Shown: positions 12,701 to 45,600 of the stretch, in pieces
How positions within the stretch are numbered: the first letter of the stretch is position 1
Layout of the letters: every line of letters starts with the position of its first letter
NCBI GenBank assembly: GCA_032358255.1
Contig: JAULBX010028603.1
Location: forward strand, 62,001-126,000
Direction of reading: 5' to 3'
Source of the DNA: Heterotrichella gracilis
Lineage: Eukaryota; Sar; Xanthophyceae; Tribonematales; Xanthonemataceae
Length of the DNA stretch: 64,000 nucleotides
Notes under the pieces: generated by a model
What the model saw: only the letters and a program-made list of their open reading frames with translations
What the model was told of the DNA's origin: nothing
Databases searched by the model: none
Position numbers and translations under genes: made by a program

Positions 12701-12981
12701 TCTCACGTGCCGTGCTGATAAAATGCCTGGCGTCTCCGCTCCACCCTACCCCACCAACCCCACCCAGCTCATCCCCCTGCTCCATCTGCAGTGCCGTGTA
12801 CACGCTGCTGCGGCCCGAGGAGGTGCGCCACTTCCGTGCAATGCGGCGCAAGGCAGAGGGTGGGGCCAGTGGGGGGGTGCAGCGCCACAAGGTGGACCGC
12901 GAGGCGCTGGAGGGGCTGCGGGGGGTGGTGGGGGCGGCGCTGGAGCACATGGCGCACAGCCTGGCACAGGGTGGGCTGTGA
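9711..12981 (+). CDS. DDX51: DEAD-box RNA helicase, DDX51/Dbp6 family
   Basis: Six exons (9711-10272, 10598-10748, 11000-11288, 11645-12018, 12315-12572, 12792-12981) join in phase to 607 residues. The first ATG precedes a Lys/Glu-rich tract (KDKKEKKEKKEKK) and a Pro/Ala-rich linker. Helicase motifs follow in order: GFSELFPVQ (Q region), AAPTGSGKT (I), LPTRDLA (Ia), TPGR (Ib), VDETDR (II), SATLTRDPAK (III), VASDAITRGMDIEG (V) and HRAGRTARAG (VI). The Walker B box reads DETD where most relatives have DEAD. The SATLT..P.K stretch, VVNYD.P.Y..TYVHR and the short C-terminal tail favour DDX51/Dbp6, which acts in early 60S ribosome assembly in the nucleolus. That role is inferred from the family. 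Confidence 0.92.
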
Positions 12982-18698: not shown

Positions 18699-21600
18699 CT
18701 ACAGCACCCCCCTGACAAATCCCTCCACATCCCCCCCCTCCTCCATTGCCTCCGCCAGCATCCCCACCACATCCATTGCCTCCGCCACATCCCCAGCATC
18801 ATCCACCTCGTCCACCTCCTCAGGCAGGCCACCAGCAGCCGCCAGCACTGCATCCAGGTCAGACAGGCGGGAGCGCATAGCGGCACGCCACGTGGCATCG
18901 CCTGAGGGCAGGACAGGTGAGGGTTGGTTCAGTAGAGGGGGCAGGAAGAGGGTGTGCACCGGATACCATATAGTCCATACCACAAGTAATAGGCATGCAG
19001 TAGGCGCGCTGATGCCTGGGCGTATGAAGCAGCAGCAGAGCAAGGCGTAACCAGGCAGAAAGAACCCCGTTGCACTGGCAGGGCGTGGGAACAACATGGT
19101 GTAGGACACAGTCTTAAAGTTTACTTCCCTCACCTTCCTGCTTGCCCTTCACCATCCGGTGCAGGCGGTCCACCCAGCTGAACAGGCGCAGGGCGGGCAG
19201 GGCCAGCGCAAGCATCGCCTCCCCCCCTGCACCCGCCGCCTCCTGCTTCGTCTCTGGTGCCGTGAGGGCCGCATGGCGCAGGGTGCACAGCAGCGCGGCG
19301 CGACGGCTGGCGGCCCATAGGCTGGGTGGGAGTAGCCACAGCGACATTGCCAGCAGGAACGGAGCCTGCATAAAACAGCAACCTTCACAAAAGCGCCCTT
19401 GCTTTGCATGACAAGTGCAGTACAGCCATGGTTGACAAAATCCGCATGCACGATCACGGTTTCCAAATCCGCATGCACGGTTGCAAAGGGGCATGGGAAA
19501 TGCCTCTGCACTGTCACTTTATCCCCTTTCTCCCCACCTGCATGGCGATGTCATCCGCCCCTGTCGCGCCTACCCGCCACCCGCACAGCGCCTCCACCCT
19601 GGCAGCCACCTGCGCCAGGTCAGCGTCACTGCAACCATCCGCCAACTGGCAGCCCAGCTGCAGCAGGCAGGGGAGTAGCAGCGCATTGGACACCGGCCCG
19701 CCCCCATGCGCATCTGTAGAGAAGCTGGTGTGGTGCGCGTGGCGGTGCAGCGCGTATGCCACGTCAGCGGCCACTAGGGCCAGGCTGGCAGGGGCGCTGT
19801 CGTTGGTGGCTGCAGAACCTGCACAGGGGGGTCACGGCTTAGGACGACAGATGGCGCATGCTGAACCCAGGCACGTACAACCCACTTCCGCATGCCCAGC
19901 ACCACAATTCAGACACAGAACAGTCGGACATGCGCCACATGCGCTGACATAGCCACAATACCCACACTAATGTCGTTGAGCGGGCATTAGTCTATTGCAT
20001 TATTGCACCCCCCTGCCCCACCTGTCCGGCTGCGCGCCACCCCCCCCGCTGTTGCCTGTCGCACGTGCTCCCAATAGCCCGCTGCCGCCTCCGCCTGTCG
20101 CCCCGCCCCCACCCCCTCTCCCCCCACCACCGGCAGCAGCGCGTTGGTCAGCATCTCGCCGTTGCGCAGGGCAGCCCCGTCCCACTCGCGCTTGGGCACA
20201 CGCAGGGAGGCATCTGAGGCACACAGGGTGCATGGGGTGAAATTAAGGGGGGGCACACAGGACATGCGATGGCATGATGGCGAGATCATGATTGAGACAC
20301 ACCAGGTCAAACACTTAAGCAGCAGATTTCGTTTTTTGACAAACAATGCACGCTTGCAGACTACAGTGCAAGTGCAAGGGTCATCCAGCACATATGAACC
20401 AGAATATACTCCGCAGTGATGCCACTTAATTTGGCTAAATGTATGAACGTTGGCGCCAGCGCTGCCTCACCTGCCCTCTTTGCCGCCGCATGGCATGCCA
20501 CGTGCACCAGGTTGAAGTGGGTCACGGTGGAGTGCATGCGGGACAGAGGGGGGCCACCGCCCCAGCCCAGGTCCGCAGGCGGTGCAACCCCCTTTGGTGC
20601 CTCGCCTATCGCCACCCCCTTGACATAGCAGTATGCCCCCAGCACCTGGCCGGGGCTGTGCGAGTAGCCCTCCTTGCACACCATGCAGTGCCAGGTGTCC
20701 TCCTCCTGGGACTCAAGCTCCTGAAGGGCCTGGGCCAGGAGGGACTGGGCAGACTGCGGGGGGAAAGATTTGGGGATCAATAGGTGGTGTGGAGATAGCA
20801 GATTCTCTGGGATCATAGTAATGGAAGCCAGTCCCGAGGTGATTGGATTTTGACAAGATCCAATCACCGAATGTTTCAGCACCGAGTGGTAGCAATGCAT
20901 GATTTGGTCAACGCCACGACCAGCCATACTCTTTAAGCCTGCCACCACCTCATCCCCACTGTTCCACCCCTCACCTGGTTTAATCCCAGGGACTGCAGCA
21001 TCTGCTGCCGCTTCTTCTCCGCCATCTCACGCATCCTCCCCTTGGTGTCGGACCGCAGCTGCTCCACAGCCGCCCTCACCTCCCCCCCAGCACCCCCCAC
21101 CTCCTCCAGCACCCCCTCAGCCAGGGGCCCCACCTGCCCCCCACTGGCCGCCCCCTCCAGCTGGTGCAGCAGCTGGAGCAGGCCAGGGGTGGACCCTAGG
21201 GCAGCGGCGGTGGCCTGCACAAGGAGACACTGTGTTAGGCGATGGTGGCTGTGTCAGGTAATTTGGGTCATTGCATGGGCGTGCCCACAGTCTTCAAACC
21301 CGCACCAATCCCTGTGGGGCGGTACAGCAGGGACCAGGCAGATGGAGACGCTATTAACCACAGACACGGTGCTACATGTTATTCCTTGTGCTGTTGTCCC
21401 CCTACCTCGTGCCCCTTGGCCAGCGCTGCGAGCAGGGTGAGCGCCAGGGACACAGTGCCACGCCCGCAGGCAGCAGTCCACTCCTCGCCCCCACGCGCAA
21501 ACAGCTCCACCTCTCCTGGTACCGCTGCACCTTTCCCAGCTGCATCCCTGGGAGGAGGTTGTGAGGAGAAGGTAGCCATCAGGTAGGAGGCTGCCGCCTG

Positions 21601-24600
21601 GGGTATGCCCCTCCCCAGCAGGCTGGCCCTGAAGCGCTCCCCCTCCGCCCCCTCCATGGCCCCCACCAGGCGCGCAAAGCTGGCCACCTCCAGGGACAGC
21701 TCCTGCACGGGGGGGGGATCACCTTGGGCCAACCACAGGTGCAACGGCCATGTGACCCAACACATGTGCATGGCATCAGCGGCACGCAACTACAAGCATG
21801 GGCCGCAGGTACGCAAATGTGAGAGGCACATGCACTTTTTGTACAACCCCACTCCTGCCACACCTGTTGCTTTGCCGCTGGTGCTGCATCCAGCGCCACC
21901 CAGTCCAGCGCAGGCGCAAAGTGGTCAAGCAGCGCGGCCTACAAGAACGGGCACATGGTAATCATATTGGAGGCAGCGCCCTCGCAGCCCACGTCGACGC
22001 AACAGCCACTGCAATCCAGGGCACTGTGCTTCACGCTCGCTCACACAAAAACACGTAAACCCGTCCCAGTACCATTAAAAATTTACAAACCCCTTCCCTC
22101 TCACCTGTGCCAGCGGGTCTGCGTGTGCCAGGTGCGGCAGCAGCCTTGCCAGCACCGATGCGCACGATGACATGCCGCTTTCCACGAGGGCCTGCACATT
22201 GTGGGGTTGGTGATGGAACAGCCGGTGGGCAGGGTAGCCCAGAGACCGGGCAGAGGCGCAGAATCAATCCGCTGAGGAATGCACAGACAGCAAGCAGCAG
22301 ATCACAGACCAGGAATGTGCAGCACTGAGCCAGCCTGGAACGCAACATGGACTTACATACGCAAGCCTACATGCAAGCCCATAAGCAAAACGTGAAGGTA
22401 CCACTGTTTGCACTCACCAATTGCTTCCAATATAGCGCGCTCAATCCCACCACCCTGTACCCCCTCCCCACCCCCCTCCACCCACCTTGAGCCCATCCGC
22501 CAGCTGCCGCACATCCACATCCTGCTGCTGCTCCCCCTGCGCTCCCCCTGGCGCTGACGTGGCGGCCTCCACAGCCACCGCCTCAAGCACCTCCAGCTCC
22601 CCCTCCAGGGCACCGGGGTCAACATGGGAGGGGGAGCTGCCGGGCTGCGTGAGGCGGCTGAGTGTAGCCAGTACATGTGTGCGCAGCATGGGCAGGGCGC
22701 CCGCCTCAACTGCCGCCTTGCGACACACCTGGGGGGCACAGCAGCCACTCAGACATGTCCACCCCCCTTGTGCCACATCATGGCAGTCACATGGGTGTGC
22801 AATCCACTGATCACATGCACACTGTGCTGATCTTGTGCAAGCAAACACTTCCTTGGTGCCTATTCATGTACTCCATGTCATGTCTGGTCACTTTCCTTTT
22901 TCTATCAATGTGCAGGCAAGATTAAGAGGCAACTCGAACCCACCAATCCTGTCCTTCCCCGCACCTTGACCTGCACTGCGGCCCGAAGCAGCCGCAGTGC
23001 ATCCTCAGCTTGCACCCCACTCGACTGCCCTGTGACAGCCCGCAGCACCAGAGGCAGCGCCCCCCCTTGGGCCAGCTCCGCCGCCACTCCGTACTGCTGC
23101 TCAGGGTCAATGGGGGCGCTGGGCGGTGCCGCGAGGCTCTCAATCATTGGCTCAGTGGCCTCGCCGTCCAGACCCTGCGCAAGGCGGTGGGGGCAGTGGT
23201 TGCCCACCGGCACATGCCAGGATCATCACACAGGAACGTCCATATGGGCTTTTTAAAATTGCTTGCATGCCAATTTAGCCCATTGGTGATGTAACATCTG
23301 TCCATACTGCTGTGCCAAGCCTGCAGATTCAAGTGCACCCCCAACAGCAATCTAGGTGTCACGAACGTACGTCTGAATTACTGCGACGGTAATGCGCGGC
23401 ACAACCGTCACGCATGCTTTCACCTTGCCACACACTTGATTACACAGCGTGTGCAGCAACCTGCTCCCACCACCCCCACCCGCGCCCTACCTGCAGCCTG
23501 AACGTGACCACCATGGGCGTGTCCCCTTGCCCCGCAGCGCTAGGCCGCCACACCGCCTGGTACACCAGCGCCAGCGGCAGTGCCAGGCTGACGATGCTTC
23601 CGCCCACCAGCAGCTCCATGCCAAAGTCGTCGTCAAGCAGGCCTGCAAGCAGGAGGAGATGGTTAGGACACGGGGTGCGGAAGGGGAGCAGGGGTTGCGC
23701 GCCAGGGGGAGGGTGGGGACTAGCAATCAGCTGTTTGCCACGAAACATGGTTCGGCCCATGAACCCACCTGACACAAGTGCAACTGGTCTATTAATGTGC
23801 ACACTTGGAAAAAACGCATTTGTCAGGACTCAAATGATTGTTGCCACAACTGCTCAGTTCCTGCGCCCCACCTGCCAGGTCCAGGTGCCTGCATATGAAG
23901 TTCTTGGCGTCTCTCATCAGGGGACCAACCTCGGCGATAGGGTAGGGGTTCCCCCCCAGGCTGCCGCGAATGAACTCCTCCTGGGTGGGCGACTTCTCAA
24001 GGGACACATAATAGGAGGGCTCGGGTGGCGAGGGGCACACGCACCACACAATCTGCACAAAAACACGCAGAGGTTCACCAAGCAGGGGGCTCACAAGCCT
24101 GCTCATCCCACAGCTGTTCAATAGCCACTGTGTGCCGTATCCGGATGGATACACAGTGCAAATGAATTGGAATGGTACCTGAATATAGATAGTACGGTGA
24201 TGAACCATGCCCCCCCTCCTCACCTGGTGCAGGATGTGTGCAGCCAGCTGCTGCCCCGCGCCCCTGGCCCCCTTGGGCCCATTCTCCTCCCCGGCCGCCG
24301 CGCCCACCAGCGCCGCCGCCGCCGCCCGCGCAAATGCCCTGCGCTGTGCCTCCCCACCTTCCAAGAAGTGTGTGCGCATGAGGGACTCAAGGGAGGTGCC
24401 GGCATCACCTGCACAGGGAATGGAAAGGGGTAAGGTGCGGCTTGTCATGAGCACATTCAGGCCTCTTTTTGAGCCAAAGATTGGCAGCACACAGCTGAAA
24501 GACCAACTGATGGGCGGCCGGCATGGCCATGACACAGCTGGGCCCCTCCTCACCTGTCAGCTTGCTGTGCCCAACCACCAGGCTATGCATCCCCGCAAGG

Positions 24601-27600
24601 CACCAGATCAGCCCCGCCAGGCAGCCGCCAGGTCGACCAGCTTGCCGCACCGCACCGGGCGCCGCTATCACCCGCTCCACCGCTGCCGCCATGCGCGCCG
24701 CTGCCCACGCGCCATCCCCAGCTGCTGTGGGGGCGGGTGCGGGTGCGGCAGGCTGCGTGGCCCCAGCGGGGGGTGCCAGCATAGAGGGGAAGTGTACAGC
24801 AGCGCCTGACTCGGCCCGCAGTAGCGCTTCCATCTGCACGGGAGGGGATGTCACGTGACTTGGACATGGTTTGTACGGGGCTTGACACAGTGAATGCGGC
24901 ATGCACCACATGCCATAGTTGAGCCTAGGTGGACACAGGAAGCTGGGGTGTAGCTTCTCAGGAGCTTTGTCACCACTCCAAACCTGCATCTATCTTTTTT
25001 ACCCTATGTTGCCAGGTGGGTGCGCCTGGCATGCATTGCACGAGTACTCGAGGTGCACCCGATAATGCATGCATATACATCTGGGTTGACATGCAAAGAT
25101 TCATAACTCGGCGTTTCATAGACCAAAACCAGTTCGGAAAACGTTTCAACCTAACTTTTCGTCGATAGCCTTAACAGCCCCCAGTTTCTTGTCCGCATAT
25201 TCCCATTGACACTCCACCTGGCTGTGGGGCAACAGAACGGCACTTGCATTCGCTGCACCACACCAGGCTCCCACTAAACCAATGGTCGACAACAGCACGA
25301 AAACAGACGCGGCAGGCACCTCGTCGCCGCAGCCTGCCCCGTCCCTAACGGTGGTGAGCACCTACGACGTATCGGGCGATGCCTCGTGCAGCCTCCGCAC
25401 CACCGACAGCTTCCTCATACGGGCCCACAAGGGCGTGCTGGCAAACAGCTCGGAGGTGTTCAGGACCCTGTTCGCGGACTGCCCTGGCGACCAGGTGCCT
25501 GTTGACGAGACCCGGCAGGAGCTGGACGTGCTGCTTGAGCAGCTGTACGTGGCCTTCAGAACCCCAATTACCCTAGACAACCTGGCCACCCTCGCCCGCC
25601 TGGCTGAGAAGTATGACATGCCCTTCCTCAAGGCCAAGTGCGACCAGATAGCCTGCGACGGCAGCGTTCTGCCCCTCACAGCTGCCAACCTGGGCACCGC
25701 ACTCAAGATCGCCACCGCTGGCAACCTGCCCACCCTGTCCCAGCGGTGCGCCGCGATGGCCTCCCAGCACCCCCTGGAGGTGCTGTATGCGCAGCCCGAG
25801 CAGTGCATCGCCTCCCTGCCACGTGGCATCCCCATGCAGCTGCTGGGCGCCACTGCCACCCTGGCGGCGGAGGCGCACTACGGCTGTCAGGCCTGGTGCA
25901 CAGCCGCGCTGGAGCAGGTGGGGGCGGGATGGGGGAACACACAACACACTGGGCATGAGCACCCGGCAGTGGCAGCAGCAGAACAGCGAGACTGGCCAGC
26001 GCACAAGCATTTGTATAAGCTAACGCAGGCAACCACCTGCACATGTCCCAGCTGTGCACACCGGCCCCTCAACCGGTCCCCCGCACCACCCACACCAGCA
26101 CCCCCATGGATGCAATTGCACCCCATCTCCATCATCGCAATCATGCCCCTCGACCCCCTCCCCGCAGGTCCAGCACCTGCAGGCCCAGGTAGACGAGCGC
26201 AACCAGCGCAAGGGCCAGCTCAAGGTGTGCGTCAACATAGTCAAGCGGGCGCTCATGCTACTCAACCCAGCAGCGGCAGCAGCAGGTGGGTAGTAGGGCA
26301 GCAGCAGGGGTGTGGAACAGTAGGCCATGCAGGGCTGTATGAATATGTGTGCGCATGCACCACCTCCATCAAGGTGTCTAAGCTGTCTATTGCTGCTGCC
26401 TGGCTAGCTGTGTTGCTCGTCGCCCACTCCACCACCACCTTTCAGCCATGTTTATCATGCTGCCACCGCATTGATGCCTCTCGGGATGACTCCAAATGAC
26501 CTCCCCTCCCTTTCCCTTCCCGCAGACAACATTGCTTGGCAGCCCCCCGAGCGCGACCCCGCCTCGCTGCTGCCCGCCCCCACGGGTGCAGCGCCATACT
26601 ACACAGCCACAGCGCAGGCATTCTGGAAGCACCTGGACGAGGAGACACGCCAGGTGCACAGGGCGCAGGCGCCACCAGCGTAATGTGCGGGGAGGGGAGG
26701 GGGGGCAAGGCAGCTGGATGCATTATCTGGTGATGCTTGTGGGCAAATCTAGCAGCTTAGCAGGAGGTACAGCCCAGCCCCACCCACATTCCTGCGTGGA
26801 TGTTGCCAGATGAGCCAGGCACCGGAAGTTTCATCCAACATGTCAGTTCGTTAAGTTGAGTTGCAAAGGGTACATGTGCACACTATGGTTGTGGGTTGCA
26901 CATGTATGTTTAATTGTTCATTTTCAGTTGTTTACCACCCGGTCATGTGGCGGCCACTAGCCTGCTGTAAATGATACGCCACCAACCACCCTTATTGTCC
27001 ACAATTTCAGAAGCCCTATCCCTGTATGGGCTGCACAGCCTGCTGCAAAAGACCACGAGCTTTTACTGGCCTCCTGCCCTGATAACTTGGGCCAAAACTC
27101 AAAAGCAAGAGAATGAACGCTTGCAGGGTGTTACTAACGAACTAGCCGTCTTATATGCTGTTGCGCTGCTAAAAGGTTACTGCAGATTAGAATTAGAATA
27201 ATAATGTACCCGTCGCGGCTCAGAAAGCCATAGACTACACGCTGGGACAGGGGCAGCATCCCTGCAGCGGAGGTGTGCAGAGCAATGCGCGCTCACATGC
27301 AAAAACAACGGTTCGCAAGAAAAGAAAATGATCCCCGGAAAAAACAGTATAATGAGCCCGGGTTGGCTCCCTCATGACTGTCTACTGCATGATACCGGAA
27401 CTAAACAAACCCCTCAAGATTACCCCAGAAGACTCAGGAAAACCCTAAAGTGGGGATCCCCTGCACCCCAGGGACCGGTAGGCAGTCACTCGAGTCGAGA
27501 TGGGTACATGCATGCATGCTGAAACAAACGGTTAAAACCGCCAGGCTTTTCAAGGCGTTACTTTCTTTCCAGTACAATCTTTAGCAAGAAATAACGGGAC

Positions 27601-30600
27601 ATTCTTGTGCGTTGCGCGCGAACTGGCATCAAACTCCTGACGCCAACCCAACTTTCCCTGCGAAAGCATGGCGAGCAACCAGCAACCCACGCCAGCGGAG
27701 CAAGGGCCCCCAGGCTCCCACTGATCCCCCTGCCGATGCCATTATCGCCACTTACAACACCGTGGGCGACGCCAACTGCGTACTACAGACCGTGGATGGG
27801 TACAGCTTCCAGGTGCGCACACAGGGTTTGGGGTTGCGAGGTGTTGCTGTACACGGCTACAACTTACTTCGTTATGCCACCGCAGTCAGAATCACTTACG
27901 TGGAGCGTCCTTTGGTTGAATTGCATATAACGACGTGATGCATGCATTAACCGATGTGATGAGCTCCTTGGGTCATGGTGCCTGCCACCCACCCCCACCC
28001 AGGGGAGCGCTTGAGGTGTGTGTGTCTTCCAGGTGCACAAGGGCGTGCTGGCGCTGGACAGCCATGTGTTTGCAGAAATGTTCCAGGACTGCGCCGGTGG
28101 ATGTGTGTGTGTTGAGGAGACACGGGACGAGCTGGATCTTCTGCTGCAGCAGGTGTACCAGGGCTACAAGTACGCATTGACACTCGACAACCTGCCCACT
28201 GTTGTGCGCCTGGCCGACAAGTATGCCATGGAGTACATCAAGACAAAGTGCGACGAGGTGGCGTGCGCGCTGCTCAGCCCACTGGTACCCGCCCAGGTGG
28301 AGACAGCTGTTGGTATAGCACAGGATGGCAAGCTGCCCCGCCTCACTGCCCAGTGCAACCAGCTGGCTGGCAGTCACGAGCTGGAGATCGTTCGCTCCCA
28401 CCCCGAGGCCTTCATCACCTCCCTTGGCCGCGACACCCTGCTATCACTGGTGAAGGTCCTGGCACAGCAGGCGGCACTGGCTCCCGCCGCACAGCAGGTG
28501 GCTGGCACGTGGCAGAGGGAGCTGATGAGGGAAATTATTGCCACAAATAAACCCCCACCCCACGTCCCCCAGAACGACAGGTTCAAAGACATTTGCGAAC
28601 GCCTGCATGGCATGGTGTGGAAAGTGGTCGACGACATCCCGCAAGGTGGGCCGAGCACATTCCAAGCCTACACATGCCTGTTGGTTGCATCACAAACAAT
28701 AATGCTGCACCTAGAGACCCTGCTGGAACTGCCCTGGTACGTCCCCCACTTGCTGCTACCGCTCAGTAATGGTGTGCCCCCTTCAGGCCCTGGCCCCGCT
28801 TCCCACCCCCAGTCCATGGTCCAGCCCCGAGTCCCCAGCTTTAGCGCAACGTACATGGAGGGGCTGATGGCAAAGCTGGCATCGGCGGGGGCCATCAGGC
28901 CACCGCCACCGCCACAGGTACCGGTGCACATGGTTTGGGGACAGCCGCCGGCACAGGCACCACTACATGTACAACCAAATTGGGGCATGCTAATCGCACA
29001 GGCACAGGGCCTGGCGGCACAGGCACAGGGCCTGGCGGCACAGGCACAGGAGCCAAACCCGTAGGCATGCGACACTCAGCAACACCAGCAGTTTGTTGCA
29101 AGGCGCTGAGGAACAGTGGCTTATATTGGGTAGCCATAATCCGGATTCAGAGAATAGCTAAAGGATACATTGAGCAACACTTACAATTATGTGCCTGTTG
29201 ACTCTTTTTGTGAACTGTTGTTTGTGAGGATTGGCAAGATTTTCCTACGATGACCCATCAGGGGGTCCAGCCCTTCTACAGCTAGTTGTAGGAGCTACAC
29301 GGTATGCTGGAGGGCCAGGAATGGGTGCTATGCCTCGTATTCACTGTTTTTCTTTATAACATTTTGTCCTTTTGTTGTTGTTGTCGTTGTTGCAGTCCCC
29401 CCAGTTTTGCTGTCGTTCATATCTACACAAACATTGTGCCGTTTGGTGACAGCTTTGGTAACTTTCTTGGCCAAACTACTTCATGTCGCAACCTACTTTT
29501 GCAACACAGCAGTGCATGCATCCTTTCCTTATCTACATTCCTCCTATCACCTGCCCTTTGGCCCCGCACCCTCACCTGCCCGGCTAGGTGCCACGTCAGC
29601 GCATCCATGAACCCGCGCGATGCCAGGTGTCCCGCCGCCGCCTCGTCTGCGGCCATGATGTCATCCACCAGGCACCAGTACTGCTCAGCAGCGGGGCCTG
29701 CAGGGGGAACCCAAGTCCCATTAATTAACGCAGGTTTGCAGCCAATGCATGCCATGCAACTGGCAATGAAGGTACAAAGCACAATTCAAGGGCGACGAGT
29801 GCATTGCCAGGAGATTGGCTTTGAAATTCTTTCACTGTTGTTCACTGAAAAGTTGCTCCACAGCTACGCATGTTTCCTTTCAAATCGGTGGTTGGAGGTC
29901 TGCATGTCAGGTGCTCCCTGCGCATGCCACTCAACAAAAGCGCACAGTTTGGATACCCCACCACCTTCACCTCAGCACCCACCTGCCACCACCGCATCCG
30001 GCAGCATGTCCGCCAGCCGGTCCAGCAGCCTGCAGCGCATGTGATCACCACCACCACCGCACACAGCCTGCAGCAGCCGACCGCACGCGCTGCGCACGCG
30101 TGGGCTGCATGGGTTGAGCAGCAGGCGGGACACCAGCACAGCGGACTGCAGCAGGGGCACGCCGCCACCACCGCCCGCCCGCGCCTCCGCCACCCTGCGT
30201 CGCCAGCGCAGCCCGTACCTGCGCCACCCACCCACTTGCGCCATCAGCTGCTTGCCATGCTACCCTGCCCCCAGCAGAAGTTCACACATGCCATGCCATG
30301 CATTGCTCGGCAGTGCACTGCATGCGCGCCAGTGACCGCCAGTTGAGTGCTCAGCAGCAGTGCCATACACGCGATCATTCCTCCTATGAGGACCTATGCC
30401 CCATGGTGTGGGCATGCGTCACGCTGCACATAACCCAATCCTAGTACGCGGGGTTGCCCAAGGCCCAAAGTCCTGCCCTGCCCCTCACCTGAGCGCCGCG
30501 CGCATTGGCGGTGTGAGCGTGTGCGTGGCCACTTGTCGCGCTAGCTTCCCCTGCTGCTCCTCGTACTCCTTGTACCCCTTGGCGCCACCAGTCACCTCCT

Positions 30601-33600
30601 GCACACACATGCAGGCCAGTCAGGATGCGCAGGCATAGGCAGGATGCAGCGGCAACCAAGCCCCGCTACGACCACGTACATCTATTAGGTCATTGCCCCA
30701 CCCAACCCTGCCACTTTTTGGGCGGTTCATTTATTGCACTGCACTTGCCACTAAATTTAACTCACTAGAAGATTATGTTATAACGGAAAAAATCCATTTA
30801 TTTAAAAAAGATGGTAAAGGTTTGCTCTTCAAGAAAAAACATCACTACTTTTTCACTTTACTTCGAGAGGAGAGAACACTTTTGTCTAAGTAGTTTTACG
30901 CTTTTCCTTGAAGTTTCAGGGATGAGTTTGTGCCATTGCCGCTCCCTTTACAGCGGCACCCTCACCCTGCGCCCGCCTACCTGTATGGTGGCCAGCGCAC
31001 CCACGTCCTCCTCTGCCGCCTCGAATGGTTCTACCCCCTTGACGGCACCTGGGTGCGGCTCCAGCGCATGTGTGAGGAAGGAGAGGCAGGGCAGGCATAT
31101 GTGGTCCAACACCGCGGGGTTGGTGGGGGCAAACGCTGCACAGGGGTGGGGGGGTGGTGAGGTGAATGCAGGTGATCAATGGAGGCAGAGCTTTCACAGG
31201 TATGGGTGCATGTGGTGATTGATGATGGGGCATGGGCCAACTGCATCAGGTGTCACCAATTGCAACGCTGTGGGATGGATGCGGCTGCAGCCAGCATGCA
31301 ATCCATGCGTGCTCAAATTGGCAGTTGATGGCCAGGCGCATGTTGCTTCCCAGCCTGGCAGTTGCTGCTGCATCCGTGTGCACACGCTTCATGCAACAAC
31401 AGCTCTGCCACCATTAGTGCTGCGCATAGGAGCCATGCACGCCGGTTATCTGCCCTCACGGCCACTCACCCACTGCCTGCGTGAGCATGTCAAACACCAG
31501 CACAACCTGGCGCTGCCACGTGGCAACGGCCGCCAGCTCAGCAGCTGGGTCCTCGGCCGCCCACTCGCACATTGCCAGGTCAGACAGCAACACCAGCTCA
31601 TCGCGCACAGCAGCAGCAACATCAAGCGGCCTGCACAGCCACCGCCACATCATGCCATGTCAGCGCCACGCAATTAACTGCAGGTGATGCCTGCACCGCG
31701 CTCATGCCCAAGTGCATGTCCATCCACCTTCCACCAGGATGACAGACACCGCTGGAGGGTAGTGGTATGGGTGGATATGTGTCAGTGAAACAGGTGCAAG
31801 TTGGGACTTGGATCACAATGGGAATGCAACGCTAATCAGGTTATTGGGGAACCCCACTAAGAAGCTTGCCGCTGGAAGTATGCACGCCTGCCCCACCTGT
31901 GGTGCGCCACGCAGTAGATGACCCTTGCCCTGATGAGCTCTGCCAGCTCAGCACCAGCACCAGGACCCCCCGCCTGGCTGAGCACCACCAGCAGCTGCCT
32001 ACCCGCATCGCCCCCCGCACCCTTCAGGCCGCTCTTGAACACCTCCTCAACAGCACCCGCCTGCAAGCAATGTGGGGAAAGCATCACCCACCATCCATAC
32101 CCTTCCCCTGGGACCAGTCACAGCATGCAGTAGCGGCGCCTAACCATTGTGGAGCCACACGAGTCCCCTACCTGCTGGACACGGGCTGCAACAGGCTAGG
32201 TGCAGGAGCTCATCATGCATAGTGTACATTTGCATGGGCAGGGTACGCCTCAACTGCCTGGGTCGGAGCCACCCATGCAATAATGTGCCCCGGGTATTGA
32301 AATACCCATTAATATATGGTAGAAAAGTAATGAAAGAATAGTGAATAGCGTAAATCAGTAAATGTCTATGTGACAAGGTACCCATCCCCCACCGCAGCCC
32401 CAACACACGCACCTCTACTAGTGTGGTTGCCGCAGCCGGTGCCACCCTGCACAGCGCCAGCAGGAGCCCCAGCAGCTGGGTGGTGTACGCCTCACAGCAC
32501 CTGCGGGGGAAGGGAGACAAGGGGGTTAGATTAAACACATGCTCCTGCGCAGCCTCAGGCCACCAGACGCGTGACACACTACACTGTCCCAGGTCCTTTG
32601 ACCTTGGGTGCACTGTACAACCCAGCACGTTACTGCGTATTCTGTGCACTCTGAACAGCAGAAACAACACTGCCCTCCACGGAGACCATTGCTACATGGC
32701 AGCCATGGTGCAAGTGCGTGCGACCAGTGACATGTCAGCCGTACCCCACCCCCCTCACCTGTAGCTGTTGCCAGGCAGATCAGCCACCTCAAACACCTCC
32801 TTTGCACCCGCTTCCGCCCCTTCTGCCCGCATGTACTGCATCACTGCATGCCGGATGTTGCGCAGCAGCTGCCCATCCAGCACTGCCGCCTTGTGCGCTG
32901 ATCTGCACCTGTCTGTGTAGACCGACACCAGGGCAGCAGCAGACTGTGAGATGCCCTTGGGGGTGGCGGTGGGTGCAGGTGGTTGGCCGGGGGGGAGGGG
33001 GGCGCCGGGACCAGGGCCAGGTGCGCGGGGGAGGGCAGCTGAGTTGGTTACCATCCTGCAGTGGGGACTGTGTTCTGAGAACCATACCATGACCCACAAG
33101 AAGTGCGAGCGGATCCCTTATACTCCTTGCGTACATCAAGTCACGGCACACACTTCACCAATGCGTTCCACCCCAAACACAGAAGGACTGCTTCCATGCC
33201 CACCCCACCACCACCACCCACCCTGCCAGCGCCTCCAGTGCCTGCCGCCTGCTGTGCGCCTGCTGCGCCGCCCCGGGCAGTGCCGCCAGTGCCCTCCCCG
33301 CACCCTCCTCGTCAGCCAGGGGGGGGAAGTGTGAGGAGGGGGTGGCAACGGCCTGCACGTCAATCCTGCAAGGGGGGCCTACTTGGTGTAAAAACATCAT
33401 GGATGTGAGCTGTCAACCACACAGAGATGGCAAATGACAAGGTTAAAATTCCCCTTAAAAGTGCGCATTGGGAAACTGGCTTCAAGGATAGCCTTCCATG
33501 CACCTGTTCAGGACACCGGCAAATCCAACCCCTCCACCCACCTGACAAATCTTGAGTGTCCGCACTCGTTGCACAGCAGCGCATGCAGGTTGTCATAGTT

Positions 33601-36600
33601 GATGTTGCGGCAGTGGCGGCACTGGAAGGCGTTCTCCCCGCAGTAGCGGCACACGCCGTGCGGCTCAGGCACCGCGCCGCTGCACCTGGGGCAGCTCACA
33701 ACCTCGCAGGCGGCGGCGTGCAGGCGGGTGTGCACGCTCAGGAAGTCAACCTGGGGGGTGAGGGACGGGTGAGGTTTTGCATAGCATGGAAACGGCGGTG
33801 GTGATAATCTCACTATGCCTGCAGGCTGCCACCCCCATGAAGCATGCCAATGAGCGCTTGGTGCTGGCAGGTGGATATCTGGGGTGCGGGGGTGAGGCAC
33901 ACAAGGATATTGCAGTCCCATATTGCAACGAGTATTGCAGAGATTTGCCCTTGCGACTCTCACCATGACCGCCGTTGCTGTGACTGGCAGTGGCAGCTCC
34001 ACCTTGAGCTCGCGCTGCCCTGGGGCAAGGGACACGCGCCCAACCTGCTGCCACAGCTGTGGCCTGGCCTTGAGCTCGTTGCAGTCCGCCACCGGCAGCT
34101 GCGCCACCTGCAGTGCCACCTCCCTGGGGGCACACCAGGTGCGCAGCGGGGTGAGGGTGAGAGTGAGGGAGGTCAGGCGCTGCGGTGAGGCCAGGCGCCA
34201 AATGATGCGGCTGTCGGTGTAGCGGGTCTCAGCCTGAAGGGGTGGCGGGGGTGGCGGTGAGGTACGAGTCGGATCATGTCTATGTGTGTGTGTGGGGTGG
34301 GGGGGTGGGGGGGGCTGATGCATAGGGTGTGCACCTATGAGTGGTGCAGGTGCTGCAGGTGTTCTTTTGCATGCAGGATTATGCATGTATGGCTCTGTAT
34401 GGCTGCTGATCAACAAGGGGTTGAAGTGCCATTATAGGTGCGTCAGGAGCAGGTGTGCCATTGACAGTGTGGCCTCCACCCACCTGCAGCGCATCCAGCC
34501 TCTGCTGAGTTGCTTGTTGCACCAGTGATGCAGGTGGCGCATCCAGGTCATCATCAAGGTAGTAGCCCTCAAACTGGACAAGCGGCTGCACACAACAGGT
34601 AAACCACGTGTCAGCGGGACGCACACTCGGCCAACGATGGCAATGCTCATGTCACAGGTGCAAATGCTAATTCCAACAATTGTTCACATGGCCAATCTTG
34701 TACCACATGGCACCCACAGCCAGGCCAAATCACAACACATCCACCTCTGTGGATGTCCTGGAGTTAATTTCATCATCCACTCCTCACCTTGATCGCCGCA
34801 TACACGTGTGCGTATCGGTGGTCAGCCAGCTGCTGGCTCTGTGCACGCAGTGTGGCAAACACCTGGGCCACCAGGGCGGGGTCGGCCCCCTCACGCAGCA
34901 CCTGGGCCACACCAGCAGGCAGTGGGCGGGGAGGCTCGCCGGTCTGTGAGCCCTTCTTCTTTTTCTGTGAAGAGCCCTGCACATTGCACCATGCATGAGA
35001 CTACAGGCGACACATGTCAGTCAGCTGTGCACACGGTGATGGCCAGACTACATTGCTGCATGACTAAGCGCAGTTTTGGAAACTTTACACAGGCATGGTG
35101 ATCCACAGTTTTGGAAACGGCCACTAGCATGTGTCACGCACCCCCGCAAGTATCCAGCCCAGCACCCCAAAGTACTCCGCTGCCACCTCCCCACGACCAG
35201 CCAGGCTGGCGCTCCAGCTCAGCAGGCAGCGGAGCATCGCCACCTGGCCAGCCCTGGCCCACTCCTCCCCCTTAGGATTCCCCGCAGCCTCATCCAGCCT
35301 GCCCCACAGCAGCCGCACGCACTGCCCCGCCTCCTTGCGCGTCAGTGGGCAGGCCTCGCACAGCAGCAGGCGTGCCACTAGGCAGCCCCAGTAGTCATTG
35401 GAGGGGGTGGAGGGGCGGGCAGGGGTGGCGGACTGTGGCAGTAGCCAGCGCACATCCATCTCCGGTCTGCATGTGCAACCATAAGAATGGCATGTGAAAA
35501 GAAGGTAGATCGCATGAAATCATAAACAGTGATATTAAAGACAACAATCAGTGTCCTTAAAATTAAAGAATACCATACAAAAGCAATCGTGCTCAAGAAG
35601 CCCGCTCTGGTCGATTGTCGTGGCTCCGGCCTGTGCCCCATGTACCTCCCTGTAGAGCAAGCTCGTTACCGCATGCATCCCCCACATTCTCCCCTCTCAC
35701 CTCTTGTGCGATGAACTCCCTTCCTTCCCCTTGCCACTCCCCACCAGCCCTGCCGCCACCAGGCGCACAGCCAGCATACAACTCTCAGACCTCCACCGGG
35801 CGCCCTCCCACACCAGGCGCTGTAGCATGGCGCTGCCCCCTGTGGATGCCACGGCAGCCTGCCAGCACTTGGCCCGCTGCGCCATCAGCTCCGCCAGGCA
35901 TTTGAGTGCGGTGTGCAGCTCCACCTGTGCCATGTAGGCGCCAGGCGAGGCCGCCACCCTCCCTGATGCAGCCTCCAGGTCCTGCAGGTGGCACATGGAT
36001 AATATTGCGGGAATGATTTGTGCGCTTGTGTTTGTTTACTTGGCAGCCAGCCTGGAGCTCTTTGGATTGTGGGCTGTGCAGCACTCCAGAGAATGCGCTC
36101 CGCCAGCTAATGCCCACTGGGGCGAGGGCCCACCTCAGTGACAAGGTTGTTAAGCGAAGGCTCAGTATGGAAATTGGGGCACAATCCAACACAGTGTGCT
36201 CGCAGCAGGATGCAAAAGAGTCATTGCGAACCCCTACCTTCCATGCTTGCTGGATCCCAAACAGGATTTTTGCATCCCTGTAGCGTGAGTGGCCCCCGCA
36301 CAGCCGCAGCAGCGCGCCCCGCACCCCCCTCCTGCAACCACCCAGCGCACTGCATGCCATTACACCGCACAGCACCTCCACCCACTGCCCCAGGCCGCCT
36401 GGTGCTGCAGAGGTGGGCTTGGCACCGGGCAGAGCGGGTGCCAGTCCCGCAGCCAGCTTTGCAGCCGCCTCCGCAGCCAGTGTGTAGGGTGTGGTGAAGG
36501 TGGAGTGGCGGGTGGAGGCGGTGGGTGGGGGCTGGGAAGTGGATGGGTCCAGGGAGTTGTCATATGCGGGGTCAGATAACCTGCAGGGGAGGGAGCTCTG

Positions 36601-39600
36601 TGATAACAGGAAGTGCAGAGTTGGTGCGTAGGGCTGGTGGTGGGAATAGCAAATGAAATGGAAAACGCTATGCACACGCTGTGGGATGCGTGCCTGCCCC
36701 ACTTAGTAAAGGGATAACATGGTGGTAAATGCCGATTTTGAAAAGGAAACTGTTGACATTGTTTGTCAGTCCCATTGAAATGCTGATCGCTCATTTATGT
36801 AACTTGATCAAGACAGGCAGGGCAACCCTAGCTGTGCAATAGTACCGACACAAATCCCCCTTTACGCCAGTGAGCGCCTCACCAGTTATCCCCCTGGGTT
36901 GCCCTCAGCAGCTCCCCACACCCAGGCGCTGCGCCAGGTGGAGGGTTGGGCAGCGCGGCTGCCTGCTGTGCCTCCTTCTCCCCCTCCCTCACCAGCGGTA
37001 CCAGGCGCTGCAGCAGGGCCAGCAGGTAGGGGGCAAGTTTGGGGTGGTGCAGCAGCGCAGACTTGACGGGGTGGTCTGCGGCACACGGGAGGCATGGGTC
37101 ACATGGGGCACAGCTGCAGTAGTAAAGCCATTAGTATAATGCGTACTTCACCCCATGCCAGACACCGTGTCCAGTCCATGCAGGCCACGTGGCTTGGGAG
37201 GGGAGACACTGGCATGCAGCAAACAGCAGAAGCGTTTCATGCAGTGACACACCAGGCAAAATGCGGCATGCATGCTTCTCACCTTGACTTGATTTCCCCC
37301 CTGCAATTTCCTTGCCCTTGCCCTCATGTTTCTCCCTGCCCTTCCTCCCCTCCTTCTCCTTCTCCTTCTCTTTTTCTTTCTCCTTCCCTTTCTCCTTCTC
37401 CTTCTCCTTTTCTTTCTCCTCTTCCCCTTCCCCTCCTCCTCCCTCCCCCTTGCCCTTGCGGTCAGCCCCCGCCAAACGCGCCAGCAGCATGAGCTGCAGC
37501 ACACGCACTGAGCGAGGCTGCGCCACATCAGCGTCATACATGGCCTGCAGCGCCGCCACGTCAGCGCCAAGGGGGGCGCCATCAAACAGCGCTGCCAGCG
37601 TGGTGGTGACCAGGTGGCGCGCTAAGGGGGGATCATGAGCGAGGCCCTGCACAGGGGGGGGAATCAAATGGGAGGTACGCAGATTTAACAACAGCACTAG
37701 TGTTGCTACACTGCACAAACCTACAATGATATAACACTGACAGTAAGAGGAGCTTGAAGTCTGCTGAGACCTTGCTGACTGCATTCACTGGGGGGGATGT
37801 GGTTGTGTGGGCATGGTTTTATAATTTCATGACATAAAAGGTTTCATTAAACGCAAACAATGCTGCTGTACATTTATTACAGCATGGACTGCATTCTGAT
37901 ATGCACACCCACATCCCGCCCCACCACCTGGCCACTCACCCTGGTGCCAACGCTGAACAGCACGTGGTAGGCGGGGACCAAGTCATGCGCAGGGATAGGC
38001 ACCCCTGGACCGCCTGTCACCCCCACCACCGCCTCCACCACCGCCCAGCTCAGCGCACAGCGCACGTGGTGCAGCGCAGCACTGGTGCCCTCCCCACTGC
38101 CTGTCTGTGTCGCACTCCTCTGGGGTACACTGTCCCTCTGCAGGGACAAGCACCAGGGTCATTGGCAAAAGAAACAAAAATTACCACAAGCATTACCATG
38201 GAACAGCAGGTACTTGAGGCTGCAAATTCGTATGCCACCTGCTGGATGGAGATTATTGACTGGATTCAAGGCGACAACAACAGGCTCAACAGACTGTCCC
38301 CGGTGTGCTATGTACGGCGCATTTGCACCCTGCGCAATCACCTGCACTTGCCCCTCCTGCTGCTCTTCCTCCTCCTTCACCTGCTCCCCCCAACCCTGCG
38401 CCCCCCACCATGCCCTCATGAGGCGGGCCGCCATGTGGCGCACAGGGGTGTGTGCTGATGTCAGCAGGGTGGCAGCAGCCAGGCGGCACAGCGGGCGCAG
38501 CAAGGCGGCGGCGGCGGGAGGGGCCACGAGAGCGTCAGGGCCCATGCCAGCCTGATCAGGGGGAGCACAGGCAAGGGGGTGAAATGCACAGGGGAGGACA
38601 TGGTGCAATGATGAACCTTGTTTGATTTATAGTTCCGACATTCTGAGCGCATGTTGCTCTTTGCGCGCCCCCCTGGGATTAAGACCGCTCTATATGAGGA
38701 GTTGCCTATGGTTCTGACGGCATGGCTGTGAAACAATATTCATCTCCAACCTATTACTACATCATTCAACTGTTGAGCAGCAGGCACATTTCAGCAGCCC
38801 CCAAGGCTACATGGCATTACGATGGCATTTGCATATACTGTACCTGCATGTCAGCCCGCACACCCGTTGCGCAGCCATCACCCACCTTGGCCAACACCGC
38901 CTGCGCCGCCGCCTCCACCAGTGCCAACCCCACATGGCAGCAGTGCAGGCACACGCGCAGGTCGGCCTCAGGTGCCCCGCCCCTGGCCAGCAGCGATGTG
39001 AGGACTGTGTCCAGCGGTGTGAGCGCCAGGCCTGCCATCTCACAAGGGTCATCACAGGTAGACAGAAAGGCCGCCAGGTGCCAGGTGTGCTCGCCAGTGC
39101 GGCCATCGACAGAGAGGATCTGGGCCGATGAAGGGGGAGAAAATCAGTAGGGATCCATAATAAATACCCCAGCAAAATAGGCTCCCCACTATATACAGGC
39201 TTTGTGGCTACACGCGACAACGCGCCACTGCCCAAGGGTGATGTTGACAAGAAGGACCCAGTTATTGCTTAGTGGATGTGACACCCGCACCTGCCTCCAC
39301 ACCTTCCGAGCACCCTAGCTGGCCTCACCTCGCCCAGCGCCCGCAGGTATGTCCAGCAGCTGACGTCCTGCCACGTGGCATTTGACCCTTCAGCTGCTGC
39401 CACCTGGCGCAAGGCACGCAGCGCTCCCGCCAGGCACCGCTCATCAACCTCACGCACAACTTCCAGCGCTCCGCCCCCATGCGTGGCCACCCCCTCACCG
39501 CTGACATCAGCACTGGCCCCTGCCACGTCAGCAGCACCCCCTCTGCTGACATCAGCGCCATGCTCCACAGCACACAGCAGGGACAGCGCACCCCCCACCG

Positions 39601-42600
39601 CCGCCCCATCCACCTCGCTACTTGCACCCAGCCACGGGGGCAGGCACACCACCTCCCAACACGCCTCCCTCACATCCTCCCCCACCTCCCCACCTCCCGC
39701 CTGCCGCAGCGCGCCCGCCGCCAGCAGCGCCTGCCCCGCCACATACCCCGCCGCACCCCACTCCAGGTCAGCATGTGCCAGGTGGACAGGCAGGCGCATC
39801 GCGGCAGCAGCCACAGCACCCGCGGCTGCGATTGGCCCTGTTGCACCCCCCGCCTGCGGCGCCGCTCCCCCCTGCTGCCCCGCCTGCAGCTCTGTCTTGC
39901 GCCGCGCGTACACCTCCATCTGGTCGATGCGTGGGTGCACACCGATACCATGCGCACGCCCAACCTACAGCAGGGCCACCATTCAGTGAGGATGTGGAAA
40001 AATGGCTCACAGTTGAGACGGTCCAGCTGCTGCGCCAGGCAAACTCATACGTTTATACAGCTCTGGAGAATACAGCTCTGTTGCTCCCAGCACCATCTGT
40101 CATGTCACCCCCCTTGTGCCCATCCATGCACACCTACCAGCATGGAGCCATGGTCTTGCCCACTCCACACCCCACACCCTCCTCCCTCTCCTACCCACCT
40201 TGAGCGTGACTGTGGGGTGGTGCTGCAGCGCCTCCTCAGCAGTGAGAGGCAGGCTGTACCAGCGCTTGGCACCGCCACCCCTCAGCACCACCCTCCGCCC
40301 CGCCAGCCACACATCCCTGGGTGCCGCCTGTGGGCCGCTGCCTCCCACCAGCAGCCGCACCCCCACCACCGCCAGGTTGTCGTCAGGGGGGCGAAGGTAG
40401 ATGCGCATGCCGCCAGAGGAGGGCGCCTCAAGGTGCGAGTCAGGCGAGGACAGGGCACGGCGAGCACCATCGGCACCGCCTGCATGGAGTGGTGGTGGTC
40501 ATGGTGGTGGTGGTGAGGAGAGTTGAGGAGAGGTGGTGGTGGAACCCTCATGCGCCATGATAGGGTAGACAGGGTGGTAAGAGTGGACTGTTACCGTGAT
40601 GTATCGTTGCGCTGTCATCTAGTTTTGCACGTGCACATGCACGTGCATGCAGCAGATGATATGCACGTGGGGATACGTGTGGGGATGCAAGCAGCAGTAG
40701 AGTGCATGGGATGCCTGCCACCTCCCCACAGCATCCATCAGTGTGCATGAGCCTACCACCAGCACCCACCTGCCCCACCCAGATCACCCGACATCAGCAC
40801 GTCAGCCGTCACAGCCTGAGTAGACTCAAAGAAGTCCACTGGGAAGGTGGGCGGTGGCAAACCCCCCTGCTGCCCCTCCTCCTCCCCTACATCCTCATCA
40901 TCTTCATCCCCTTCCTCACTGTCCAGCTCCTCGTCATCATCATCATCATCATCGTAGTCAAGGTCGTCGGCATCAGCGGGGCGGGCAGGGGAGGCAAGGG
41001 CGGTGGGTGGGGAGGGGGAAGGTGCGGAGAGGACGGCGGGGGAGTGGGTGGTCGTGGGGGCGGGAGCGGTGGTGGTGGTATTATTGGTGGTGCTCCTGCG
41101 CATGCCTGTGACAGGGATGGGCCAGATCAGGGGCGTACGCAGCGACGCGGAGTTAAAAGGGGTGGCCATGCGGCAGCAGCCCAAGCAGGGTTTCACACAG
41201 GTGAACAAAGATGATGGTGCGTGAAGTATAAGTACACCAAGTACCCCAAGAACGGCACTGCTGCCCGCGATAACACGCCAGTTTCCACGGGGTTTGCAGC
41301 ACAAGCCAAGCCCCCACCCACCCACCCACCCACCTAGCAGGAATCCCTCCACCGTAAGGGGCGTCACCTTCCCCGTTGCGCCTGCAGCTTGCGCCTCCCT
41401 TGGTCCCACATGGACCTCCCCAGGCCCCGGTGTTGTAAGGAAGTGCAGGAACCCCTTTTCGCCAAGCAGGACCACCACGCTCTGCTGCGTTGCAGGCAGG
41501 GGTATGCTTGCCATCCCCTCGACACATGTCTCCCCGGTGTCCTGCACACACACATGGCCACATGCAATCAGCGACACAGGGCACATGAGTGAAGCCAACG
41601 GCATGCAGATGTCGCAGTGGGGCAGTGACTGGCAGAGCAGTATCGGCGGTGCCAATCATCACAAGTTGCTGCACAGGAGCAATGACCTTGCAAGCAGTGC
41701 CTTCCCACCCCCTGCACGTAGTAGTAGGCCAGCACCGAAGGCGGCAGTGGTGGACTGCAGCTCCAACCACCACCACGACCACCACCATCACCACCATCTG
41801 CCTTAGTGATGACAGCAGCCAGACAATGAGGGCGCCTCACCCACCTGTGACATGAGATTCTGCAGCTGCAGCGCACATGTGCCCCCTTCCCCTTCTTGCC
41901 GCTGCACACACAGTGCCGCCGCCATAGGTATGCCCCCAGGCCCCTTCTCACTCCCCGTCACGCACATCAGGGCGGGGCTGCCCAGGGTGGCGCGGGCCAG
42001 GGGCAGCAGGGGCACTTCAAACACGTGGCTCAAGCTCACGTTCCTGAAGACCTCACTGGCTGAAGATCCAGTTTGCATGTCTGCGGGCGCCCAATGGTCA
42101 AATGCGGTGCCATTCCACTGTGCCAAGATCAGCTGGGCGGACTCAGTCTCCGGGTCCCCAAAGGCTGTAAAAAGGATCCCCATTGCTGGGGAGAATGCCA
42201 GGGATTTGCCATACCAGTGGGGCCCAACCAGGGCTTCTGGTGGGCACTGGGGTGAGGCTGTGAGGCTGGCGGTTGGGGCGGCTGGCGACGAGCTAGGTGA
42301 AAGAGTGGCATCGGCAGGTGAGGGCAGCTGTGCGCTGCATATGGCCCCCTCCTGCGTGATGATGGCGCAGTGCCACTGGACCTCCTGGCTACCACATTGC
42401 TCCTGCACGACCACACCCGCACTGAAACCCATGCATTGACACAACAATGGTAAATGAAATACATGTACCGTCAACCCTGCAACTCTGCACCCACATGAAT
42501 GTACTTCCAGTCAGTATTGCCTCATACCTGCCCCCTGACCGCATGCCATTGGAACAGTGTGCTGCCCGCCACCTGCCCCCGATCCGGCGCCACCACCTCC

Positions 42601-45600
42601 AGCCGCGGCGCCCCCGCACTCCCCGCAAGGTCGTATAGCTGTACTCCCCTGGCCAATGTGACAGCCAGCCAGGTGTCGCTGCCTGGCACCCACTCCAGTG
42701 CCAGCACTGTGCCGTGGTTGGGCGGCAGGGTGATGGGCAGGCGGTCAAGCACCTTGCCAAGGGGGGTAAGCGTCCACACCTGGGCAAATAACGGGAAATG
42801 GTAACCGGTATGCAGGTGCCGGGCAGCGTGCTTGTGTTTGTGCACAAGATGTCACCATCAAGGCTGAGGCAGGTGTGCATATTAACCACTGCCAAACATG
42901 CATGAAGTGATCAAACCTGCATTATGTGACTGCTCACGTGAACCACCACAGAGTGCATGCCCCCTCCCACATGCAGCTGTACCTGCACCACTGTCATCCC
43001 TGCAACCGCCAGGTGGCTGCCGCTCCACGCAACCTGCACCACCTCAAAGCCAGCAGGGTGGCAGGCAAGCGCCATACGCTGGGGAGGAGGCGGGGAGGAG
43101 GGGGAGGAGGAGGAGGAGGGTGCCGCAGCCCCACCCCCGGCGCCACCACTCCCGTCCAGGTCCCCGACGCACGTCCCTGTGTCGATTATTGCCACGTGCG
43201 CCCCCCTTGCCACCGCCAGCGCGGCCCCTCCCGGCGCTGCCGCCACCATGCGCCGCTGCACCGTGCCGCGCTCCACCGCTGCGCGCACCTCGCGCCCAGC
43301 AGAGGTCCTGCAGCAGGAGTGAAGGCATTAGCAGAGCTTGTCAACAACTTTGGCAATGGTAAGTTCGCTGGGTAATGTGCAGGAAAAGCAATGCCACTGC
43401 AGTACCAGGTCGTACACTGGCGGTGGCGCACATGGCAATGACAAGCGCAGTGGCATGCCTGGTACAGTATGCAGCTGCCTTTTGAGGTCCAGGCATGCAG
43501 GCAATCACGTGGCTCCTCACCCTTCCCCTCCCCTTGGCTTGGCCTCAAATCCGCTTAGCTTCACGATGCGCCGCAGCTGCACCAGGTGGCGGGGGTGGGC
43601 GATGGAGACAGGCACCTGCAGGGCGGGCGGACAGGTCAAGGGAGGGGTATCAGGCGGAAGAGCAACAAGAAGGCAAAGCGTAGTCATGTTAAGGACCGTG
43701 TGGGCTAAGCAGCATTTGAGTTGTCCATGTGGTGATCCGCATGAGCTAAATTAGATGCCTATGTGGAAGCCACAATGGCACCTGCCATCCCATGCAATAC
43801 AACACACGAAAGACCCTCTCTTCCATCCCCCATTTCGCCGTCTGGTGACAGCAATGACCACCCAACGGGGGACAGGCGTGGGTGCGGTCCATGTGTTCCC
43901 ATGCCCCTCGCACCTTGGCAGGCAGTATCAATTGTCCGCCTGCCGCCTCCACAATTGTGGCCATCCGCTCCATTGCGCTGCGCCCACTGGCACACATGCG
44001 GGTGGCCAGGCTGGAGCAGTCCCGCAGTGCCTGGCACAGCACAGCCTGCAAGGGGATGGGGGACACACTGGGTCACGTGGCGCAGCAATGGGGGCAACAC
44101 AGGGCATACTTACACGGCAGGCAGCCAGGTCCGCATACAACTACAACAGGGACACAGCTGGGCATTGCACCCCTTGGCTGCTTTGTCATGACCAGTGGCA
44201 GAGGTGCTGTGTGGCAAATGCGTACCTGGCTGATGGGGGCCTCTTCCAGGCTGGCAGGGCTGTGCATAGCTCCCCTCAGCGCCGCTCCTGCCACCTGCAC
44301 CACCTGAGGATCCACCAGCATGGCACCAGCACCAGCGCCCGCCACCACACTCTGCAGCAAGGGGGCACAGCATGCATGTGGGATATGAGCACCACATGGA
44401 ACATCGCCACCAGGGCACCACACAAAAACATCAGAACCACTAGCCACCGATTTGGTAAGTTCTTACTCACTCCAAGAGATTCAGACTTTCAATTCTGTGT
44501 GACAGTACATGTTTTGCTCAATCACATCACATGCTCACCAGCCCCCCCAGTAGGACCTTGCGTGGCAATGCATGCTGTCAATCAACACACACAGCGTAAG
44601 CCAAGCCAAGGTATTGAAGGTCCGCCTGCCATCCACCCACCTGCCACATGTCTGGCCCAACATCCTCCGCCATCCATTCCAGCGTGCTGCCAAACACATC
44701 CCCCACCTCACCCGCCGCCCACTCTGGTAAGCTGCCAAGTGCATCCCCAGGCTCCCCAGTCACGTCAGCATCACCATTGCCGCCACCACCTCCACCAGTC
44801 GCTGGCGCACCCGCAGGCGCAGCCGCAGCGGCGGGTTGCCCGCCCGCCCCTGCCGGCATGCAGCGGCAGGGTATGCCCCCCGCCCCCGCTCCGCAGTCAC
44901 AGAAGAACCTGGACTTTGCTGAGTACACCACATCGTGACCCGCGTGGCACACCTGCAGGGGGTTAGGGTGCGGGGGTTGGCTCATGGGTAGGGCTTAGCA
45001 GAGGGCTTCACATAGATGCACCAAGGTCCCCTCATTGCATGCGCAGACATGCTCCAGCAACAGTGATGCACCTGCCAAGCCCCTTCCCCTCCCTCCCCTT
45101 GCCAGGGCTGCACATCGCCATTCAAGCATGGACACAGCAGCACAGCGGTGCTAAAGAGTGCTGTGCAACAACATATTGTCTGCCCTCCTCACCTTTGCGC
45201 ATGTGCTGCAGCACCCCTTGGAGTCCACAAGGCTGCACGTGTAGCAGAAGTACCAGTGCTGCTCAATGAAGGCCTGGCCACTGCGAGCAAAGCTGCACAG
45301 CTGGGAGGCGGAGGGGGCGGGGGCGGAGGAGGAGGAGGGAGCGGCAGCGCCAGGGGCTTGCGCAGGACTGAAATAAGAGGGTGAAATGGGGTGAGATGGT
45401 GGAGGAACAACCTGCGATCAGCGTGCACATTTCGTAGCATGCGTTGCTATGGCGATGAACACACTAAAATCAACACAAATTATTGAGTGATCACGGTTAT
45501 GCTGATATCCCTAGTTGAGATGGCACCAAGATGGCCACCAGCAGCCTTCACATCACATTACATCCCATGCATGCCCCCGAAGCGATGCATCCAAGATGGC

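Follow-up and report, generated by a model that had tools for sequence, protein, structure and literature searches.

A UBR4/BIG-type E3 ligase gene of Heterotrichella gracilis carries, within a single intron, two tandem BTB-domain units on the opposite strand. The analysed window, a stretch of 64 kb, had been described in a first-pass annotation as holding such a nested antisense arrangement, and this is well supported by sequence, with the guests wholly contained in a single intron of a host gene that is itself continuous. The earlier count of two BTB genes holds with respect to homology, but only the first unit (BTB1) is evidently intact, whereas the second (BTB2) has no in-frame ATG; we therefore count one intact gene plus a second, doubtful one. 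Likely, a BTB gene entered a small UBR4 intron and, most simply, was duplicated there, and the host would still remove the resulting 4.7 kb as one intron.

The host gene (18699..52366, minus strand) was modelled with an HMM for codon usage and splice sites that was trained on the window. With cheap introns the HMM returned hundreds of false exons, which were discarded, whereas with a realistic intron cost it converged on a single minus-strand gene. After zero-length, shadow and over-run exons had been stripped from the output, the final model comprised 59 exons encoding 5153 aa, with the start at 52366, the stop at 18699 and no internal stop across the 5153 codons. The first exons, which encode the N-terminus, are those of the model only. 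At 33.7 kb, the gene agrees in length with the 34 kb given previously. The protein contains a zf-UBR box (PF02207, E 1.6e-07, above the cut-off) and E3_UbLigase_R4 in full length (PF13764, positions 3-809 of 809, E 1.5e-145); the nested intron separates the two, with the UBR box encoded on its upstream side and the complete E3 module entirely on its downstream side. When 728 aa surrounding this intron were compared with solved structures, they matched Arabidopsis BIG (PDB 9qt9, E 1.1e-77) and human UBR4. The product resembles Arabidopsis BIG and human UBR4 (PDB 9qt9, 9nwd) in its collinearity, in its length of about 5150 aa and in having a UBR box and a full C-terminal E3_UbLigase_R4 module; the host gene described here carries nested genes. 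A long EKEKEK/KGK-rich low-complexity insert is present in the scaffold at about residues 2910-2980. Beyond the 3′ end of UBR4, a series of plus-strand exons with a good coding score was predicted at 9710-12970; it gave no Pfam match in the ORFs tried and probably represents a separate gene.

The exon directly upstream of the nested intron (29576..29697, minus strand) ends in phase 0 at the donor CAG/GTGAGG, the slash marking the splice boundary. The exon directly downstream (24554..24833, minus strand) starts in phase 0 at CCCGTGCAG/ATGGAAGCG, the acceptor at 24833 reading CCCGTGCAG/ATGG on the minus strand. Both exon ends, 29576 and 24833, are exact, and the two exons join in phase 0 after UBR4 residue 4107. 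Ranked from the weakest among the 58 UBR4 introns, the donor at 29576 takes position 54 (fifth best) and the acceptor at 24833 position 46. Within the interval, no other minus-strand donor scores above 7.5, and no acceptor scores better than 24833. In the downstream exon, the phase-0 frame alone among the three is free of stops. Residues 3904-3997 of BIG align upstream of the join and residues 4052-4297 downstream, with about 80 UBR4 residues between the aligned blocks compared to about 55 in BIG, which places the join in a weakly conserved linker within a single collinear protein. The proposed continuity of the UBR4 frame in phase 0 across 29576/24833 is confirmed by the stop-free 5153 codons, the strong splice sites and the BIG collinearity on both sides. 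Transcription of UBR4 across the nested intron and its splicing are predicted from these features.

The enlarged intron (24834..29575, minus strand) measures 4742 bp and on a log10 scale exceeds the mean intron length by about 10.5 standard deviations; the other 57 UBR4 introns range from 114 to 460 bp with a median of about 230 bp. Within this interval the coding score was 100.8 for the plus strand compared to 1.7 for the minus strand. When the model was trained on UBR4 only, the plus-strand score was 91.2, and it was 0 in 100 of 100 second-order Markov shuffles. Minus-strand "exons" predicted inside the interval were rejected as shadows of the plus-strand BTB coding (1.7 vs. about 100). Between BTB1 and BTB2 lies a dispersed repeat with sharp ends (27190..27296, plus strand) that is 91% identical to 4498-4605; this 108-bp sequence, whose copies are about 22.6 kb apart, had no Rfam or tRNA match and may be a short mobile element. 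Searches for Rfam families and tRNAs gave no hits overall, and no direct repeat of at least 18 nt common to both intron flanks was seen, i.e., no insertion footprint. Elsewhere in the window, 4891-5039 and 5036-5187 form a local tandem duplication of about 150 bp with 84% identity.

BTB1 is encoded on the plus strand by three exons and has 303 aa. Exon 1 (25282..25917) begins with the ATG at 25282 and contains the whole BTB domain (PF00651, E 1.4e-09). It is followed by exon 2 (26168..26285), the first intron having a donor score of 8.8 and an acceptor score of 9.7, and by exon 3 (26526..26683), which ends with the stop codon TAA. The codon score of exon 1 is 0.233 per codon compared to 0.234 in UBR4. 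BTB1 is probably functional. For BTB2, also on the plus strand, a putative exon 1 (27668..27812) was delimited by three-frame translation and homology to BTB1, the conserved frame being recognizable from 27714. After an intron at 27813-28032 follows exon 2 (28033..28497), which encodes most of the BTB domain, is 47% identical to BTB1 over 137 aa and has a codon score of 0.234 per codon, equal to that of UBR4. Two further introns are probable. They separate a probable exon 3 (28573..28645), whose reading frame continues without a stop into both flanking introns, from exon 2 and from exon 4 (28787..29064), which contains a 21-bp tandem repeat and ends with the stop codon TAG. The putative introns at 28498-28572 (75 bp) and 28646-28786 (141 bp) are open in frame and score as non-coding. 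Both have a length divisible by three and lack an in-frame stop, so that spliced and unspliced forms would both be in frame.

BTB1 and BTB2 are paralogues with about 46% identity, and each gave 38.5 bits with the Pfam BTB family (PF00651, cut-off 20.5, E about 1e-9). A further BTB copy was not found within the 64-kb window. The equality of the per-codon scores of the BTB copies and UBR4 argues against a foreign or chimeric segment. The Nei-Gojobori method gave a dN of 0.484 and a dS of 0.714 for the pair, i.e., a ratio of 0.68, with dS depressed by strong codon bias. As this bias made frame-shifted controls for the simple dN/dS uninformative, a GY94 codon model with UBR4 and BTB frequencies was used. 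It rejected omega = 1 (2dlnL 18.5 with F61 codon frequencies) and estimated an omega of 0.23-0.29 in the better conserved part, that of BTB2 exon 2, which shows purifying selection along the path between BTB1 and BTB2. Synonymous sites are near saturation, indicating that the duplication is old, and if it took place within UBR4, the nest must date back at least as far.

In the explanation we favor, a BTB-domain gene would have entered an ordinary small UBR4 intron of about 200-300 bp in opposite orientation and then, most simply, been duplicated in tandem inside it. The UBR4 transcript would still be spliced across the whole 4.7-kb segment, and the BTB genes would have promoters of their own and act independently of UBR4 as passengers. 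Since none of the 57 other introns exceeds 460 bp, insertion is favored over an old large intron, and the size of the intron seems to stem from the insertion itself. Several points count against this explanation. The BTB pair could have arrived already duplicated, the exon after the intron begins with ATG, which might mean a second promoter or a split UBR4, and the Nei-Gojobori ratio of 0.68 speaks less strongly for constraint than does the maximum-likelihood estimate, which corrects for codon bias. A search for relatives of the locus in viral contigs and prokaryotic genomes found none, as expected for an alga, and hence no ancestral form of the intron lacking the insert.

Part of the doubt concerns BTB2. 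Its only suitable ATG, at 27668, reads MASNQQPTPAEQGPPGSH-stop and would give an 18-aa peptide, whereas the conserved frame (APTDPPADAIIATYNTVGDANC...) lacks an ATG back to the upstream stop; the two frames are one base apart around a CCCCC run. Moreover, the only plus-strand TGTAA of the intron is located at 26966, downstream of BTB1 exon 3, and none follows the BTB2 stop within the intron. BTB2 may therefore be a pseudogene, the intron then holding one nested gene and a relic; this reading is compatible with the main explanation and is a serious one, to which we give somewhat less than an even chance. It is opposed by 349 codons that are open from stop to stop, by the UBR4-like codon bias and by the purifying selection along the BTB1-BTB2 path. 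In addition, a one-base homopolymer difference is a common assembly error, and the start might be located in an undetected upstream exon. The start defect is thus possibly due to a sequencing error, a recent pseudogenization or frameshift, or an undetected first exon, and BTB2 appears to have long been under constraint, with its start out of frame in the present assembly. The missing start also underlies a reading in which BTB1 and BTB2 form a single gene with two BTB domains, BTB1 exon 3 being spliced from 26653 to 28033. The HMM favors this join when a second gene start is charged for, but this preference stems from BTB2 having no start in the model. We regard a single gene as unlikely: BTB1 ends at a stop of its own and is followed by a TGTAA, and the join would leave out 27714-27812, where the N-terminal part of BTB2 is homologous to BTB1.

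Other readings concern the host. If the insertion had split UBR4, the products would be an N-terminal scaffold of 4107 aa with the UBR box and a C-terminal E3-module protein of 1046 aa translated from the ATG at 24833. The in-frame ATG at the start of the downstream exon and the position of the UBR box and the E3 module on opposite sides of the intron would fit such a split, and intron retention and cryptic polyadenylation are described as possible consequences of nested units (PMC3192792). However, neither splice site is damaged, both are strong by UBR4 standards, the phase is preserved, and an ATG also opens another internal exon (20022-20213), so that such a start is nothing special. TGTAA motifs in UBR4 sense show no enrichment in the intron, occurring twice in its 4.7 kb compared to nine times in 13.5 kb of other introns, so that a programmed truncation of UBR4 gains no support. 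TGTAA is the usual green-algal poly(A) signal and may not be that of the host. On balance, a split UBR4 is distinctly improbable. Even less credence is given to an assembly artefact in which the BTB segment was misplaced in UBR4. The sequence comes from a single assembly, but such an error would need two breakpoints in one intron with splice sites and flanks left intact, the codon bias matches that of UBR4, and G+C is continuous.

With respect to function, the BTB proteins had been proposed to act as CUL3 adaptors, which would stack ubiquitin-pathway genes at this locus. In a profile search, the nearest solved BTB domains were those of Miz-1/ZBTB17 (E 4.3e-06) and SPOP (E 2.7e-05), a transcription factor and a CUL3 adaptor, respectively. 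An AlphaFold model was poor (pLDDT 53.6), and its fold matches, SPOP at the top (E 0.009) and KLHL11-CUL3 (E 0.11), were suggestive but not significant. The likeness to SPOP and Miz-1/ZBTB17 lies in the BTB domain, nearest by profile and, for SPOP, also the top fold match of the low-confidence model, but the copies described here lack a MATH or zinc-finger domain. Neither MATH, Kelch nor another substrate-binding domain was found above the Pfam cut-off in the BTB proteins, and their C-terminal regions had no match above a curated cut-off, a match to FERM_C_FAK1 reaching 21.5 bits, below its cut-off of 27.7. The proposal gains from SPOP being among the nearest BTB domains and loses from the proximity of Miz-1 and the missing substrate domain; a CUL3-adaptor role is no more than a possibility.

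The first-pass annotation had also called nesting of a tandem pair rare. Nesting as such is common in the animals surveyed: nested genes make up 4.3-8.7% of the protein-coding genes in seven vertebrates (PMC8467205), and in Drosophila about 6% of the genes lie in introns (PMC3786989). In human and mouse, host and guest are on opposite strands in 74-78% of the simple nests (PMC8467205), so the BTB nest is oriented in the common way. Two tandem genes sharing an intron are less usual; our literature search turned up neither a UBR4 nest in algae nor a base rate for tandem nests or for algae. Like the animal cases (PMC8467205, PMC3786989), the BTB nest consists of complete opposite-strand genes in one intron, apparently derived from duplicated or inserted genes. 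It differs in that two paralogues share one intron and that the organism is an alga. In addition, animal nested genes are explained by large introns, as discussed in PMC8467205, whereas the other introns of UBR4 are all below 0.5 kb, and the insert would have made a large intron rather than exploited one. Nested intronic genes are therefore a known kind of arrangement, of which the UBR4-BTB case is a further example.

The first-pass annotation had also suggested that antisense transcription could make the two units interfere with or regulate each other. A regulatory reading of this kind would treat the nested pair as a switch, BTB transcription hindering removal of the enlarged intron and thereby setting the balance of active and catalytically dead UBR4. 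With the intron retained, UBR4 would keep the UBR box and the substrate arena but lack the E3 module. The hemi-RING of human UBR4 forms a catalytic unit at the C-terminus that is attached flexibly and sits on the substrate arena (PMC7618180); with the UBR box encoded upstream and the E3 module downstream, an unspliced intron would yield an arena without catalysis. We consider such a switch very improbable; if it existed, expression of the BTB genes would be tied to the catalytic half of a giant ligase of protein quality control. Provided that the ancestral intron was like the 57 others (<0.5 kb), the locus would be a clean case of a nest that was not favored by a large pre-existing intron, and as such the UBR4 nest bears on the origin of nested genes in compact genomes.
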